64,000 nt of DNA from an uncultured Rhodospirillales bacterium (lineage in GTDB: Bacteria; Pseudomonadota; Alphaproteobacteria; Acetobacterales; Acetobacteraceae). Shown here piece by piece: positions 45,829 through 57,538 of this stretch. The notes under the pieces were generated by a model. The model ran no database searches. It was given only the letters and a program-made list of their open reading frames with translations, and was not told the origin of the DNA. A program made the position numbers and the translations under genes. Location of the stretch: contig CAIYSR010000145.1 in the NCBI GenBank assembly GCA_903928895.1, forward strand, positions 1-64,000. The letters run 5' to 3'. Numbering within the stretch: the stretch's first letter is position 1; each line of letters starts with the position of its first letter.

Positions 45829-46713
45829 CTAACCCAGCCGACGCCCCGCCAGGCGCTCCAGCACCCGGATCGGCGCGGTTTGCGGCCGCGCCATGGCCGC
45901 GACCGGCAGGTGGAACGTCTGTTCGAAGGCACAGCGTCCCGCCATGGCGGCATGCATCACCTGGTCGGTGAAGCAGATCCAGGTTGTCCCCGGCACGAAG
46001 GCCACCGCCGCCTGGGGCGCGCCGGCCTGATAGGCGTTATCGCGCTTGGCCGCGTCGTGCAGCCCCAGCATGAAGTGGTCGTAGTCGCTGCGCCGGCCCT
46101 TGGTCAGCCCCACCGCCGCCATCGCCCAGGCCTGGCCCGGGACCATACCGCGCAGCCGGGGAAGAAAGGCGCGGGCGAACGGCTCAAAAGGCTCTCCCAC
46201 CCGCCACTGCCGCACCGTGCCGTCGGGCGCCACATTGGTGAAGACCCGCAGGATCCGTTGCCCGCGGGTCGGCCGCGCCGGGAAGGCATCGACATGGAGT
46301 CGCCGGTCGTCATGCCGCGGCGAGGTGCTGCGCCCGCTGATTTCGGCCGGCCGGTAACTCGTTCGCGCCCGCTCCAGCGCCACGCCATAGCTCGGGCACA
46401 GCCCGCGCATAAGGCTCTCGGCCGCGGTGCCGTAGCGCTGCAACATCGCCGACAGCCCCGCCAATTGCGCCCCGTCATAGCCCGAACCGGCGCACCGCCC
46501 GGTCCGTGGATCATAGCTGATGTTCTTGCGCGAATTGTCGAGCACCCCGGCATCGAGAAACGGCTTCTCCTCGTCCTGGAGCGGGAACGGCAACGGCATT
46601 GCCAGCACCCGTCCCGCCTCCAGCGCCGCCACCGCGCGGGCACACAGGGACGGCTCGAACGGCCCTCCCCAGTCGGCCACCGACAATGGTTCCAGGACGT
46701 CGCTGGCATCCAT
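45829..46713 (-). CDS. Kdo hydroxylase family protein (KdoO-like Fe(II)/2-oxoglutarate dioxygenase)
   Basis: This 294-residue protein matches the KdoO family, which hydroxylates the Kdo residue of lipid A-linked inner core to Ko. The family blocks are PFPLQDEEKPFLDAGVLDNSRKNISYDPRTG, SYRPAEISGRSTSPRHDDRRLHVDAFPARPTRGQRILRVFTNVAP and TWICFTDQVMHAAMAGRCAFEQTFHLPV. The iron ligands are probably His and Asp of LHVDAF and the His of VMHAAM, with an Arg downstream for 2-oxoglutarate. It is the last gene of a unit with a dual-specificity phosphatase and a cytochrome b561 gene. An LPS inner-core modification role follows from the family. Confidence 0.87.
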   Translation of the reverse strand: MDASDVLEPLSVADWGGPFEPSLCARAVAALEAGRVLAMPLPFPLQDEEKPFLDAGVLDNSRKNISYDPRTGRCAGSGYDGAQLAGLSAMLQRYGTAAESLMRGLCPSYGVALERARTSYRPAEISGRSTSPRHDDRRLHVDAFPARPTRGQRILRVFTNVAPDGTVRQWRVGEPFEPFARAFLPRLRGMVPGQAWAMAAVGLTKGRRSDYDHFMLGLHDAAKRDNAYQAGAPQAAVAFVPGTTWICFTDQVMHAAMAGRCAFEQTFHLPVAAMARPQTAPIRVLERLAGRRLG

Positions 46714-46724
46714 CCGATCCCCTC

Positions 46725-47396
46725 CTATTCGCGGCGCAACACCCGATCATGCAGAAACCCGGCCACCCCGCCCGACCTGAAACGGCGCGTGATCGCGTCA
46801 GCATCATAACCCATCCGCACCCAGTCAAGGAACGGGGTCCGCCCCTCCGTCTCTGTCTCATATCGTAACAGCACGGCATCCAGCACCCCCGCGCGAGACC
46901 GCCGCAGATGCCCATGGCGCAGGCTCAACTGGCCGAGTGCCACCGCCACGGTCGCGCCCTCGACGAGCAGGAACACGGCGGCCGCGAACCCCGCCCGATC
47001 TGCGCCCGATTTGCAATGGAGCAGCGTCGGCTTGGGCGCCTCCCGCAGCGCGGCGCCAAGCGCCAGCAGCGTCTCGCGGGCCGGCGCCCGTCCGCTCGAC
47101 AGCGGCAGGTCGATAACCGCAAGCCCGAGCCGCCGGGCCTGCTCGCGCGACAGCGCGTCCGATCCGCTCCGTGTCGCCCCGCGCAGATTGACCACGCTGT
47201 TCAGTCCGAACCGGCGCCGCGCCCGCGCCAGCCGCCCCGGCGTGGGATGGTTGGCACGATACATCACGCCCGGCACCACCACGCCCCAATTGCTCCACAG
47301 CAGACGCAGCGCGGCATGGTCGACCAACAGGCTGTCGACCCAGGCCAGCAGCCGCCCATGGCGTGCCGCGAGGTCGCCGTGGAAGATCGACTCCAT
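46725..47396 (-). CDS. Dual-specificity/tyrosine phosphatase family protein
   Basis: This 223-residue protein has a Cys-based phosphatase fold. The P-loop is LLHCKSGADRAGFAAAVFLL, matching HCx5R with the Asp preceding Arg, as in some phosphoinositide- or lipid-directed phosphatases. The general acid region is IDLPLSSGRAPARETL, and PGVMYRANHPTPGRLARARRRFGLNSVVNLRGATRS is the N-terminal family block shared with DSP proteins. No signal peptide is present. Its ATG at 47396 overlaps the cytochrome b561 stop by one base (TGATG). Coupling to a Kdo hydroxylase gene suggests a lipid or LPS substrate, which is inference. Confidence 0.85.
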   Translation of the reverse strand: MESIFHGDLAARHGRLLAWVDSLLVDHAALRLLWSNWGVVVPGVMYRANHPTPGRLARARRRFGLNSVVNLRGATRSGSDALSREQARRLGLAVIDLPLSSGRAPARETLLALGAALREAPKPTLLHCKSGADRAGFAAAVFLLVEGATVAVALGQLSLRHGHLRRSRAGVLDAVLLRYETETEGRTPFLDWVRMGYDADAITRRFRSGGVAGFLHDRVLRRE

Positions 47397-47926
47397 CAGC
47401 CCCGCGGCGCCGGCATCATCCGACGCAGCAGCCCGTCACCCATGACATACTGATGGAACAGCGCCATCGCGGCATGGCCGAGCGCCACGAAGAGGATGGC
47501 ATTGGCCGCCAGCTCGTGCAGTTCGCCGATCGTCCCGCGTAACGCCTTGTCCGGCGGTGCCAGGCCGGCGAGGCTGACATAGCCGAACAGACTCTCGCCG
47601 CGCACCCAGGCATTGGCCAGCCCGGCCACCAGCGCCGCGGCCATCAGAGCATACAGTAGCACATGGCCGAACCCCGCCGCCCGCTCCAGCCAGCCCTCGG
47701 TCTGCGGCGGCCGCGCCCCGGCCACGGTCAGCCTCACCCCAACGCGCAGGATCAGAACCACAATCAGCGCGAGGCCGAACACGATATGCACCGAGCGTAC
47801 CGACGGCCGCTGCTCGCGCGGAAACAAGTCGATCAGCTGCGCCCCGAGCCACAGCGCCGCGATCAGCGCGGCCGTCAGCCAGTGCAGAACGATCAGGCGG
47901 CGATCATATCGGAATGTATCGGACAT
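47396..47926 (-). CDS. Cytochrome b561 family membrane protein
   Basis: This 176-residue protein has four membrane helices and belongs to the cytochrome b561 / Ni-hydrogenase b-type subunit fold. Candidate heme ligands are His in RLIVLHWLTAALIAALW, His in SVHIVFGLALIVVLILRVGVRL, His in GFGHVLLYALMAAALVAGLANAW, and His residues in IGELHELAANAILFVALGHAAMALFHQYV. Such proteins pass electrons from quinol to periplasmic acceptors or superoxide. It leads the unit b561-phosphatase-KdoO. Eighty bases separate its ATG at 47926 from the MbfA stop. This gap contains ATGTTGCACCGCACA, matching a site upstream of the RND pump. Confidence 0.88.
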   Translation of the reverse strand: MSDTFRYDRRLIVLHWLTAALIAALWLGAQLIDLFPREQRPSVRSVHIVFGLALIVVLILRVGVRLTVAGARPPQTEGWLERAAGFGHVLLYALMAAALVAGLANAWVRGESLFGYVSLAGLAPPDKALRGTIGELHELAANAILFVALGHAAMALFHQYVMGDGLLRRMMPAPRG

Positions 47927-47955
47927 CGTGCGGATCCCTCGTACGCGCTTGCATC

Positions 47956-47970
47956 ATGTTGCACCGCACA
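47956..47970. promoter_or_regulatory. ATGTTGCACCGCACA motif upstream of cytochrome b561
   Basis: The 15-base motif lies 30 bases before the b561 ATG. It differs at one position from ATGTTGCACTGCACA in the palindromic site upstream of the RND operon (35279-35293). The flanking CATATG arms seen there are weaker here (CATC before, CACATC after). A shared regulator is possible; none is encoded nearby. Confidence 0.35.
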
Positions 47971-48006
47971 AAGCACATCACGCCTGTCCTGTCGTGCTCC
48001 GAATCA

Positions 48007-48963
48007 TTAACTCGCGCCAATCAGGATGCCGGTCCCGAACACCAGAATGCCGCCGAACCCGACCTGCATGGCCGCCGAAAGTGGGGGCGTATCCATGTAT
48101 TTCCAGCGGATCCAGGTGATGATGGCGAGTTCCACCACCACCACCACGACCGCCAACACGGTCGCCGTATAGAAGTTCGGCAGCAGGAACGGCACGGTGT
48201 GCCCGATCCCGCCGAGCATGGTCATCAGCCCGCAGATCACGCCCCTGATCCATGGCGCGCCGCGCCCGGTCAGGCTGCCATTGTCGGACAGTGCCTCCGC
48301 GAAGCCCATCGAGATGCCGGCCCCGATCGTGGCGGCGAGCCCGACGAGGAATGCATCCCACGAGCTTTGCGTGGCGAACGCGGCGGCGAACACCGGCGCC
48401 AGCGTCGACACCGAGCCGTCCATCAGCCCGGCCAGCCCGGGCTGGATCACCCGCAGCACGAACATGCGCCGTGCCGCCTCGTCCTCCTCTTCGCGCACGC
48501 TGGCCGGCAGGTTCTCCTGCATGATGCGCTCGGCCGCGTGCTCATGCCTGGCCTCGGCTTCGGCGAGGTCGCCGAGCAGCTTGCGGATCGAGGCATCGGT
48601 GCTGCGCGTCGCCGCCTGCCGGTAGAACCGTGCCGCCTCGAATTCCATCTGCTCGGCCTGGCTGCGCACCAGTTCAAGCCGCAGCGGCTGGGTCTGCCAC
48701 ACCGGCTTGCGCGCGACGAAGCCGCGCACATCCTGGCGCCGGATCAGCGGGATGTGCTCGCCGAACTTCTCGCGGTAGAGGTCGATCAACCAGCGCCGAT
48801 GCTCGTTTTCCTCGGCTGCCATGTCGGTGAACACCTTGGCCGAGGCGGGATAGTCGGTCCGCAGGCCTTCGGCGAAATCGAGGTAGATGCGGCCGTCCTC
48901 CTCCTCGGCGCCGATCGCCAGCGCCAGGATTTCGCGCTCGGTCAGGTCACTGAAATTGCGCAT
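48007..48963 (-). CDS. mbfA: Membrane-bound ferritin MbfA (ferritin-like domain plus VIT1 iron transporter)
   Basis: This 318-residue protein joins a rubrerythrin/ferritin-like domain to a VIT1/CCC1-type membrane domain, the architecture of MbfA, an iron exporter of alphaproteobacteria. Residues 1 to about 160 hold the di-iron helices: GAEEEDGRIYLDFAE, AAEENEHRRWLIDLYREKFG, EQMEFEAARFYRQAA and EAEARHEHAAERI. The VIT1 part starts RVIQPGLAGLMDGSVSTLAPVFAAAFAT and carries AATIGAGISMGFAEALSDNGSLTGRGAPWIRGVICG, with several spans to the end. In rhizobia and Agrobacterium mbfA is controlled by Irr; no Irr-type box is clear here. It lies alone, with a strong hairpin upstream (49061-49106). Confidence 0.92.
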   Translation of the reverse strand: MRNFSDLTEREILALAIGAEEEDGRIYLDFAEGLRTDYPASAKVFTDMAAEENEHRRWLIDLYREKFGEHIPLIRRQDVRGFVARKPVWQTQPLRLELVRSQAEQMEFEAARFYRQAATRSTDASIRKLLGDLAEAEARHEHAAERIMQENLPASVREEEDEAARRMFVLRVIQPGLAGLMDGSVSTLAPVFAAAFATQSSWDAFLVGLAATIGAGISMGFAEALSDNGSLTGRGAPWIRGVICGLMTMLGGIGHTVPFLLPNFYTATVLAVVVVVVELAIITWIRWKYMDTPPLSAAMQVGFGGILVFGTGILIGAS

Positions 48964-49060
48964 CCGCCCGCCTCCAAGATCAACGGAGCGCTCCTAGCAC
49001 GGATGCTCCGGGCACGGGAGGGGAGCTGTGCTGCGACGCACCATGGCGCTCTGCGCGACT

Positions 49061-49106
49061 CCGCCCGTGGCGTCATGACCGTTCACGGTCAGGACGCCAC
49101 GGGCGG
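49061..49106. terminator. Long near-perfect hairpin between a small membrane-protein gene and mbfA
   Basis: CCGCCCGTGGCGTC (49061-49074) pairs fully with GACGCCACGGGCGG (49093-49106). Inside, TGACCG pairs with CGGTCA around TTCA, giving a 21-pair stem with one A/G mismatch. It begins 35 bases beyond the stop of the 103-residue membrane-protein gene and about 98 bases before the mbfA ATG. It has no T-run on either side, so it may be a Rho-assisted terminator or a structured mbfA leader. Confidence 0.6.
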
Positions 49107-49140
49107 CACGCGTCCCGCCGGGGTGGGAGGCGGTGTCCTT

Positions 49141-49452
49141 CTAGCCCGGCGAGCGGTCGAAGCGAACGGTGGCGCCCAGCCCGATCATGCCCGCGATCCA
49201 CAAGATCACGCCGGTGACATAGGTAAAGGCCGCATTGGAGAAGTATTGCGCCTGTATTTCGATTTGCTGATCGGCCGACAATGTCGCAAGATCGAACCAG
49301 GTTCGGTTATTGACTTGATATCCGTAAAATATTCCGAGAACAGGACCGGCAAACCCCCAGATCAGGAGGCACGCGAGCCCAATTTTTCCGGTGCGACTCA
49401 GTTCGGATGTCCGGACAGTGGGTACGATTTTGCCATGCGTGACGATTGCCAT
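49141..49452 (-). CDS. Small two-span membrane protein, unrecognised
   Basis: This 103-residue protein has two clear membrane spans: IGLACLLIWGFAGPVLGIFY (about residues 24-43) and TYVTGVILWIAGMIGLGATV (about 76-95). A polar loop between them contains NNRTWFDLATLSADQQIEIQ. I do not recognise a family. An AGGAG ribosome binding site precedes the ATG at 49452. Base composition of this gene and its upstream region is visibly lower in G+C than the neighbours. A perfect FNR-type box lies 126 bases upstream (49578-49591), suggesting expression at low oxygen. A strong hairpin follows its stop. Confidence 0.75.
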   Translation of the reverse strand: MAIVTHGKIVPTVRTSELSRTGKIGLACLLIWGFAGPVLGIFYGYQVNNRTWFDLATLSADQQIEIQAQYFSNAAFTYVTGVILWIAGMIGLGATVRFDRSPG

Positions 49453-49577
49453 GCCGATCTCCTACTTGATTTGTCCCTCCAGAAAGCCCAGTCCGAAACG
49501 GCGTCTCGATGCGAGTTCGGGCTCTATCTTGTCGGACTGATAACTTGGAACCCTAAGCCTATGCGGCAGGTTCGGCA

Positions 49578-49591
49578 TTGATCTAAATCAA
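49578..49591. promoter_or_regulatory. FNR/Anr-type box TTGATCTAAATCAA
   Basis: The sequence TTGAT-CTAA-ATCAA is an exact match to the FNR-family half sites TTGAT-N4-ATCAA. It lies in the 200-base non-coding gap between the enoyl-CoA hydratase stop (49653) and the 103-residue membrane protein start (49452), both on the minus strand. It is therefore upstream of the latter only. By family knowledge, such boxes are bound by oxygen-sensing FnrL/Anr/FixK proteins. The 126-base distance to the ATG is compatible with a box near -40 and a leader of some 80 bases. Confidence 0.7.
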
Positions 49592-49652: not shown

Positions 49653-50453
49653 TCAGCGCCCGGTGAACACCGGCGCCCGCTTCTCCAGGAACGCAGTCAC
49701 CGCCTCGCGGTGATCCTCCGTTGTGTGCGCCAGCGCCTGCATCGCCGCGGACATCTCCAGAATGGCGGCGAGCCCCATGCCCTGGCCCTGTACCATCAGC
49801 CGTTTGGTCATGCGCACGGCCTTTGGCGGATTGGCGGCGATGCGGGCCGCCATCGCCCGCGCCGTCGGCATCAGCTCGGCATCCGGCACCACCTTGGATA
49901 CCAGCCGCGCCGCCAGCGCCTCCTGGGCGTTCAGGATATCGCCGGTGAAGGCCATCTCGCAGGCCTTGGAATATCCCACCACGCGCGGCAGCAGCCACGC
50001 CCCGCCGTCGCCGGGAATGATGCCGACCTTGACGAAACTCTCGGCGAACCGCGCGCTCTCGCTGGCGATACGGATATCGCACATGCAGGCCAGATCGTTG
50101 CCGGCCCCGATCGCCGGCCCGTTCACCGCCGCGATCACCGGCACTTCGACCTTCTCGAAGGCCAGCGGAATGCGCTGGATGCCGGCGGAATAGTAGCGCG
50201 GAGTCTCGGTCGGGTTGTCGGCCCGCTGCTTGAGCCCCTCGAACATCTTCTTGAGGTCACCGCCCGATGAAAACGCCGTCCCCGCGCCGGTCAGGATGGC
50301 GCAGCGGACGGAGGGGTCGGCGTTGATGCGCTCGAGCGCCGCCACGATCCCATCGACCATGCCGGCCTCGGAGATCGGATTGCGCATCTCGGGCCGGTTC
50401 ATCGTGATGGTGACGACGTGGCCGTCCTGTTCGTAGATCACGGGGTCGGACAT
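49653..50453 (-). CDS. Enoyl-CoA hydratase/isomerase (crotonase) family protein
   Basis: This 266-residue protein has the crotonase fold. It starts MSDPVIYEQDGHVVTITMNRPEMRNPIS. The oxyanion-hole block is FSSGGDLKKMFEG, with Ser-Gly-Gly-Asp where AGADLKE is standard. The second conserved region, PVIAAVNGPAIGAGNDLACMCDIRIASESARFAESFVKVGIIPGDGGAWLLPRVVG, places Gly and the acid positions as usual, with Asp in GDGG replacing one catalytic Glu. The substrate and exact activity are open. I chose the ATG at 50453, with GGAGG upstream. It lies 29 bases downstream of the M14 peptidase gene and is probably the last gene of the ABC/M14 unit. Confidence 0.9.
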   Translation of the reverse strand: MSDPVIYEQDGHVVTITMNRPEMRNPISEAGMVDGIVAALERINADPSVRCAILTGAGTAFSSGGDLKKMFEGLKQRADNPTETPRYYSAGIQRIPLAFEKVEVPVIAAVNGPAIGAGNDLACMCDIRIASESARFAESFVKVGIIPGDGGAWLLPRVVGYSKACEMAFTGDILNAQEALAARLVSKVVPDAELMPTARAMAARIAANPPKAVRMTKRLMVQGQGMGLAAILEMSAAMQALAHTTEDHREAVTAFLEKRAPVFTGR

Positions 50454-55579: not shown

Positions 55580-57538
55580 TCAACCTCTGCCGGATGCCGC
55601 GCGCGACTCCGCCAGATGATCGAACCGCCGCCGGTAGGTTCCCAGCCCCATCGTCTGCGAGCGCAGTTCGATGATGAAGTCGTGCAACTCGGCCTGCGGC
55701 ACCAGCGCCTCCATCTCGTCCCACCCCGGCGCATCCGGCGCCTCCGCAAACCCGAGAATCTGCCCGCGCCTCCCGGTCAGCAGCCGCTGGGCCCGCGGCG
55801 TGAAGTCGCTCGGCACCACGACCACCACGCGATCCACCGGCTCCAGCAGTATCGGCTCGGCCAACGCCAGCCCCTCGCGCATCGCCATCCCGGTCGCGGT
55901 CTTGAACGCCATATCGGAGCTGTCGACCGCATGGAACGAGCCATCGACCAAGGTGACGGAGACATCGACCACCGGGTTGCCGAGCGGCCCCTTGCGTGTC
56001 GCCTCCTCCGCCGCCTCACCCACCGCCGGGATGAAGTTGCGTGGCACCACCCCGCCGACGATCTTGTCGACGAACAGGAAACCCTCGCCGCGCGCCCGCG
56101 GCGCAATATCGATCTTCACGTCGGCGAACTGGCCGTGCCCGCCGGTCTGCCGCTTCAGCCTGCCGTTCTGGTGCACCGCCTTGCGGATGGTCTCGCGGTA
56201 AGCAACCTTCGGCGGCAGCGTGGTCACCTTCACGCCCGCGCCCTTGCCCAGCCGCTCGACGGCGGCGGAGAGATGCATCTCGCCCTGCCCGTGCAGAACG
56301 GTCTGCCCCAGGTTCGCGTCCTGGCTGACGCTCAGCGAGAGATCCTCCTCCATCGCCCGCTGCAACGCGCCGGACAGCTTGACATCGTCGTTGCGATCCC
56401 CCGTTGCGATCGCCAGGGCATAGACCGGCGCCGCCGGCACCGGGAACGGCAGCGCCGCCGCCCCGATCGTTGTCCCGGTGGCGATCCCGTCGAGCCGGCC
56501 GAGCGCGACCACGTCGCCCGCCTCCGCCTGCGCCACCTTCACCGGTTCCGCCCCCGGATAGCGGTAAATGCCGCCCAGCCGCTGGCCGCCGAGGCTCTGG
56601 CCGTCCTTCACCGTGCCGCGCAGCAGCCGCGCGAAGGAAAGCTTGCCGGTATGCCCGGCATAGACCGACTTGAACACCTGCAACACCGGTTCGGCGCCGG
56701 CGCCGATGCCCAGCCGCGCCGCCGTCTCCTCCGGCTGCGGCGCATCGTGGCGCAGCGTCTTCCACAGCCGCTGGATGCCGTTGTCGGTCTCGGCGGCGCC
56801 AAGCAGCACCTCCACCACTGCGTCGCTGGCCAGGTCGGCGCGCAACTGGCCGTAGATTTCGGCACTCGTCGGCGCCACATCCTCGATCAACTTCTCCAGC
56901 AGCACGTCGTTGTGGTCGGCCAGCTTCTCCAGCAGCACCCCGCGCACCTCCTGCTCGCGCGCCTTGACCTCCGCCGGCAGCGAAATCACCTCCGACGGCT
57001 GCCCCTTGCGGTAGCGGTAGGCGCGCTCGCTGACCACGTCGACATAGCCCGTCACATGCCCGTTCTCGCGGATCGGCACCTGGCGCAGCGCCAGCGGCAC
57101 CTGGGAAAAACCCTGCAACGCCTCGAGCGTGTCCTGCACCCGCCCTTCCAGGGTCTCGATCTTGTTGACGAAGATCAAATGGGGAATCTTCCGCGCGTCG
57201 AGCTGGCGCAGCAGCGGCCCCACCAGGATCGCCTTGGCCGGCTGCGGCTCGCACACCACGATGGCCACATCCACCGCGCCCAGCGCAGCGGACTGCTCGA
57301 AGGCGAATTCGACCGAACCCGGGCAGTCCAGGATCGACCACGAATCGCCCAGGAAATGGCAATGGCCGAGCCGCACCTCGGTGCCCATCCGCCGGCTGCG
57401 CGGATCACTGCGCCGGATCGGGGCGCCGGCGGCCGCCATCAAGGCCTCGAACACGGTTGACTTGCCACTGCCGTAGGGACCGACGACGGCGACGGAACGG
57501 GGACGATGCGTGCCGCCCCCGTTGGTTTGTCCTGACAT
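55580..57538 (-). CDS. Elongation factor G-like protein (fifth class, not canonical EF-G)
   Basis: This 652-residue translational GTPase-like protein has the EF-G domain series but unusual G motifs. The P-loop is GPYGSGKST (20-28), G3 reads DCPGS (71-75) where EF-G has DTPGH, so the catalytic His is Ser, and G4 is NKIE (125-128) in place of NKxD. Later regions are EF-G-like: VLQVFKSVYAGHTGKLSFARLLRGTV, HLSAAVERL, RETIRKAVHQNGRLKRQTGGHGQFADVKI and QTMGLGTYRRRFDHL. It belongs to the widespread elongation factor G-like family of unclear function and is shorter than EF-G (about 690). It stands alone, divergent from the DUF1489 gene. Confidence 0.9.
   Translation of the reverse strand: MSGQTNGGGTHRPRSVAVVGPYGSGKSTVFEALMAAAGAPIRRSDPRSRRMGTEVRLGHCHFLGDSWSILDCPGSVEFAFEQSAALGAVDVAIVVCEPQPAKAILVGPLLRQLDARKIPHLIFVNKIETLEGRVQDTLEALQGFSQVPLALRQVPIRENGHVTGYVDVVSERAYRYRKGQPSEVISLPAEVKAREQEVRGVLLEKLADHNDVLLEKLIEDVAPTSAEIYGQLRADLASDAVVEVLLGAAETDNGIQRLWKTLRHDAPQPEETAARLGIGAGAEPVLQVFKSVYAGHTGKLSFARLLRGTVKDGQSLGGQRLGGIYRYPGAEPVKVAQAEAGDVVALGRLDGIATGTTIGAAALPFPVPAAPVYALAIATGDRNDDVKLSGALQRAMEEDLSLSVSQDANLGQTVLHGQGEMHLSAAVERLGKGAGVKVTTLPPKVAYRETIRKAVHQNGRLKRQTGGHGQFADVKIDIAPRARGEGFLFVDKIVGGVVPRNFIPAVGEAAEEATRKGPLGNPVVDVSVTLVDGSFHAVDSSDMAFKTATGMAMREGLALAEPILLEPVDRVVVVVPSDFTPRAQRLLTGRRGQILGFAEAPDAPGWDEMEALVPQAELHDFIIELRSQTMGLGTYRRRFDHLAESRAASGRG

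Follow-up and report, generated by a model that had tools for sequence, protein, structure and literature searches.

A predicted class II FNR promoter ahead of an orphan two-span membrane protein in an uncultured member of the Acetobacteraceae

Introduction

Oxidases include small membrane proteins among their subunits, such as those of the CcoQ/FixQ and CydX type. Class II promoters dependent on FNR, FnrL or Anr, of which FF-41.5 is an example, are described as having the regulator at position -41.5 (PMC4505428, PMC4886647; the position as given in PMC4886647). The FnrL regulons of Rhodobacter, as outlined in PMC4634722, have ccoN and hemN as targets, with hypothetical proteins being common targets as well. 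In Bradyrhizobium, MbfA is described as Irr-regulated (PMC4902296). In our literature search, we found no paper joining FnrL with "small membrane protein", nor one joining Acetobacteraceae with FNR, cbb3 and "microaerobic".

Here, we propose that a palindromic box in a 64-kb stretch of DNA from an uncultured Rhodospirillales bacterium (contig CAIYSR010000145.1, positions 1 to 64,000; hereafter the window) acts as operator for a class II FNR promoter, and that this promoter drives a 103-residue protein made at low oxygen. Judging from the sequence evidence set out below, we consider this the likely explanation of the locus.

Results

The box, TTGATCTAAATCAA, is a palindromic FNR box at positions 49578-49591 (no strand assigned), and is the only exact match to TTGATN4ATCAA in the window, compared with a mean of 0.01 in shuffled sequence. 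It lies 125 bp from the ATG of the 103-residue ORF (49141-49452, minus strand). On the opposite side, an enoyl-CoA hydratase-like ORF (named by eye), also on the minus strand and with its end near 49653, runs towards the box, which leaves the 103-residue ORF as the sole gene on its downstream side. A Shine-Dalgarno-like AGGAG can be read at 49459-49463 (minus strand), and a GGAG-type sequence precedes the ATG in both homologues described below. A 555-residue plus-strand ORF (47914-49581) was set aside, being a mirror frame that stays open opposite the minus-strand genes. Elsewhere in the window, a relaxed box, TTGACGAAGATCAA, is found at 57165-57178 within an EF-G-like ORF (55580-57538, minus strand; identified by eye).

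The 103-residue protein, read from its ATG, has two hydrophobic stretches (approximately residues 21-41 and 79-99). The G+C content of its ORF is 0.554, lower than in the window (0.686) or in mbfA next to it (0.671), and that of the leader is likewise low (0.552). Searches of Pfam, NCBIfam, PHROGs and PDB sequences gave no meaningful family match, and a Pfam and NCBIfam search with all three homologues again gave none at a meaningful E-value, nor any to curated models for established small oxidase subunits of the CcoQ or CydX kind. The initial annotation had described an exact FNR/Anr half-site pair, and a two-span protein of 103 residues, of no recognised family and lower in G+C than its surroundings, as the sole gene to read from it; each of these descriptions holds, that on families with respect to Pfam, NCBIfam, PHROGs and PDB sequences.

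When the three proteins are compared, invariant residues cluster within the spans and close to them (W32, G36-P37, G40-I41, Y43, W52, Y70-F71, W85, and G88). The three proteins have no conserved Cys or His, and this speaks against their having a haem or metal site. The predicted model of the window protein consists of two long helices and is of low confidence (mean pLDDT 58.6). The distribution of charges favours both ends being inside in the window protein, and does so less clearly in the two homologues; because the N-terminus of the G166 protein carries no net positive charge, the topology is uncertain.

Two homologues were found. The one in G150, of the same genus, has 40% identity (E 4.5e-22) and the same place before mbfA, while the one in G166, of another genus, has 24% identity to the window protein (E 6e-13) and has as its neighbour not mbfA but a gene read by eye as an amino-acid ABC permease. 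A profile search of the family matched 12 of 397 genomes at E <= 0.1, of which 3 are convincing (own genome included) and nine are weak (E 0.0066-0.088). Four of these nine loci were opened (L034, L036, L037, and L039; L035, L038, and L040-L042 were left out), along with three loci that other searches had given: L048 (coinciding in place with L037), L049 and L012. No TTGAN6TCAA box and no relative of like size was found at any opened locus, and at L039 no ORF was found at all. At the level of the order, 4 of 395 genomes matched at E <= 0.01, of which two are genuine; at that of the class, the only match at E <= 0.001 among 367 genomes sampled was the genome itself. Within the genus of G166 the small gene is present in 1 of 8 genomes. 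These family, order, class and genus samples overlap.

Searches with the single sequence found nothing besides its own genome among 150 family genomes, no homologue in genome contigs or viral contigs, and nothing beyond noise in plasmids. A later scan of genome contigs returned the same two homologues, with identical protein sequences, from AlinenLipids_bin-4869 (G150), an uncultured Rhodospirillales MAG, and MAG_BA70 (G166), an Acetobacteraceae MAG with "Anoxic" in its record title. The latter, as a title and not a measurement, is in keeping with life near the oxygen boundary. On these sequence comparisons, we regard the 103-residue protein as a lineage-restricted orphan, found in three genomes only.

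In all three clear homologues (the window protein counted), a TTGAYN4RTCAA box lies 119-125 bp before the ATG: TTGATCCAGATCAA in G150 and TTGACTTGAATCAA in G166, each at 119 bp. The consensus box of class II promoters, TTGATN4ATCAA, is exact in the window, and the box of one homologue has a TTGAC half-site. Between pairs of the three leaders, identity within the box is 0.64-0.86; over 80 bp on its upstream side it is 0.24-0.39, and in the spacer immediately past the box it is 0.30-0.33. This conservation rests on three sequences because only three genomes carry the small gene. The initial annotation had raised the question of whether the box is kept upstream of orthologues; it is present in both homologues found, including that of another genus with different neighbours.

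Further into the leader, a putative -10-like hexamer, TAGGGT (49550-49555, minus strand), lies 22 nt past the box. Hexamers of the same xAxxxT form occur at the same offset in G150 (CATAAT) and G166 (CAGCAT); in each of the three leaders, 35 nt separate the hexamer end from the centre of the box. The window hexamer matches 3 of the 6 consensus -10 bases, and a sigma-70 scan found no promoter. The geometry of the three leaders would fit a class II FNR promoter, with the regulator at -41.5 from a predicted start site.

The three leaders also have in common GTTATCAG (49537-49544 in the window, minus strand), which overlaps the expected class II start site and lies 33, 33 and 32 nt past the box; an 8-mer common to all three arose in 0 of 20,000 shuffles. 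The pattern of box and GTTATCAG was found in 6 of 397 family genomes (control 0), three of the six being the small-gene promoters themselves. In a wider scan of spacings in 249 genomes, 8 of 21 TTATCAG matches lay 32-35 nt past the box (p 0.003), and 5 of 18 did so once the three small-gene promoters were removed (p 0.07). These counts are no more than suggestive of TTATCAG being a start-site element of FNR promoters in the family. Other family promoters with TTATCAG 32-35 nt past FNR-type boxes are at L050, L051, L053, and L061; the genes at such promoters include an ompW-like gene near an fnr-like gene and a GltD-like oxidoreductase (all by eye), a Host_attach/baeRF12 protein, and a DsbD_2-type gene adjoining ccoN.

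Judged by its sequence, the genome has all the parts of an FNR system. It encodes two FnrL-like regulators (L023 and L024), each with a C-x2-C-x7-C motif and a fourth Cys, as expected of a four-cysteine [4Fe-4S] regulator of the FNR type, and with an E-x2-SR recognition helix. Their best NCBIfam match is FnrL (E 3e-49 and 2e-43), with scores short of the 300 bits set as its curated cut-off, and other Crp-type HTH matches are also present. A relaxed box approximately 105 bp before the start of L023 suggests possible self-control of this gene.

Exact boxes number nine in 5.57 Mb. One lies between hemN (TIGR00538, E 1e-128) and ompW (PF03922, E 2e-50), another between ccoN (TIGR00780, E 9e-178) and a DsbD_2-type gene, and at least two are inside coding frames read by eye as recA and sdhB. 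The form TTGAYN4RTCAA is over-represented relative to its reversed control in each of the three genomes with the small gene (22 versus 3 in G000, the genome of the window, 29 versus 1 in G150, and 19 versus 1 in G166). A perfect box also lies approximately 62 bp before a small membrane protein of approximately 52 residues with no Pfam match (L007:1283-1495, minus strand).

Downstream of the small gene lies mbfA, encoding a rubrerythrin-VIT1 iron exporter (48007-48963, minus strand; NF045676, E 3.9e-159), with a long hairpin lacking a T-run between the two (49061-49106, minus strand). The RNA fold of the whole interval, 48964-49140, has a z of -4.3. Within the genus, mbfA is present in 4 of 5 genomes. 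The block 45829-48963, comprising mbfA, cytochrome b561, a dual-specificity-type phosphatase and a Kdo hydroxylase, is found in G111 and G151 as well, and a paralogue of the phosphatase (by eye) follows sdhB in L009.

Discussion

What might this locus do? At low oxygen, an FnrL-type [4Fe-4S] dimer would bind the box at 49578-49591, and RNA polymerase would begin transcription near GTTATCAG, approximately 41.5 bp away from the centre of the box. This would yield a leader of approximately 90 nt and then the protein, which would form a hairpin of two helices in the inner membrane; its two ends would probably be cytoplasmic, with a loop of approximately 30 residues outside. Of this scheme, the sequence shows the box and how it is conserved, the geometry of the promoter and the existence of the regulators; we infer that the regulator binds, that low oxygen activates the gene, where transcription starts and how the protein sits in the membrane. 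The initial annotation had predicted an oxygen-regulated membrane protein, perhaps connected with respiration. Its regulatory part gains support at the sequence level from the kept box, the cysteine-complete regulators and the boxes at known FNR targets; the link to respiration stays conjectural.

Other explanations of the box have to be weighed. Relatives of CRP and FNR are able to share one site, so the box might be bound by an FNR relative sensing another signal (nitric oxide or redox), the gene then not being oxygen-regulated as such. Having two cysteine-complete copies and other Crp-type HTH matches in one genome leaves room for this, yet we think it unlikely, as both of the best candidate regulators retain all the FNR cluster cysteines and the other boxed genes, hemN, ompW, and ccoN, are known targets of the oxygen response. 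That the palindrome arose by chance or is inert is highly improbable: its position is kept in all three homologues despite diverged surroundings, even if the exact copies within the frames read by eye as recA and sdhB indicate that not every copy need function.

It is also improbable, and slightly more so than a different signal, that the box serves the iron exporter mbfA, the small ORF being a passenger in the mbfA leader. The arrangement invites such a reading, with mbfA 177 bp downstream on the same strand as the small ORF and the order of box, small gene and mbfA kept in G150. However, two genomes of the same genus (G111 and G151) have mbfA with neither the small gene nor the box, for which reason mbfA is probably not the target, and in G166 the box and the small gene occur without mbfA alongside. 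These three genomes contradict the constant linkage that membership of an mbfA operon would entail. In addition, a strong hairpin separates the two genes in the window, and mbfA is described as being repressed by Irr (PMC4902296).

If the box is the operator of the small gene, as we favour, the most likely role of the protein may be as an accessory or regulatory subunit of a low-oxygen membrane complex, a proposal that we make with low confidence. We name the cbb3 oxidase as an example since the same kind of box occurs at its gene in this genome; neither family, structure nor a conserved neighbour ties the 103-residue protein to a respiratory complex. More speculative still is the idea that an FNR-controlled hairpin kept through deep divergence and a changed genomic place is a low-oxygen modulator of a complex in respiration or the envelope, with TTATCAG at 32-35 nt from the box marking an undescribed sub-type of FNR promoter.

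Our findings add a named candidate to the genes with which an environmental relative of the acetic acid bacteria would respond to low oxygen. Were it to modulate an oxidase, the protein would join the small subunits that annotation pipelines overlook, and should the GTTATCAG element be real, it would represent an extra layer in the FNR promoters of the family.

How, then, does the locus compare with known systems? On our reading, the small gene is a new orphan, restricted in lineage, that belongs to a regulon of a known kind, and the mechanism is not new. Like the oxidase subunits of the CcoQ/FixQ and CydX type, the 103-residue protein is small, in the membrane and probably made at low oxygen; unlike them, it has two spans, no Pfam match and a place outside any oxidase operon. 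The MbfA iron exporter (NF045676) is encoded next to the small gene, and where the small gene is missing there is no box at mbfA. As in the Rhodobacter FnrL regulons outlined in PMC4634722, ccoN and hemN are boxed here and a hypothetical protein would be a target, whereas the small protein is confined to its own genome among the 367 class genomes sampled. With the class II FNR promoters, as far as PMC4505428 and PMC4886647 describe them, the locus shares the consensus TTGATN4ATCAA, a putative -10-like element at a spacing that would fit -41.5 and a four-Cys, E-x2-SR regulator in the genome; it differs in that the small-gene promoter has an extra GTTATCAG at the expected start, a feature common to a few other FNR-type promoters of the family.
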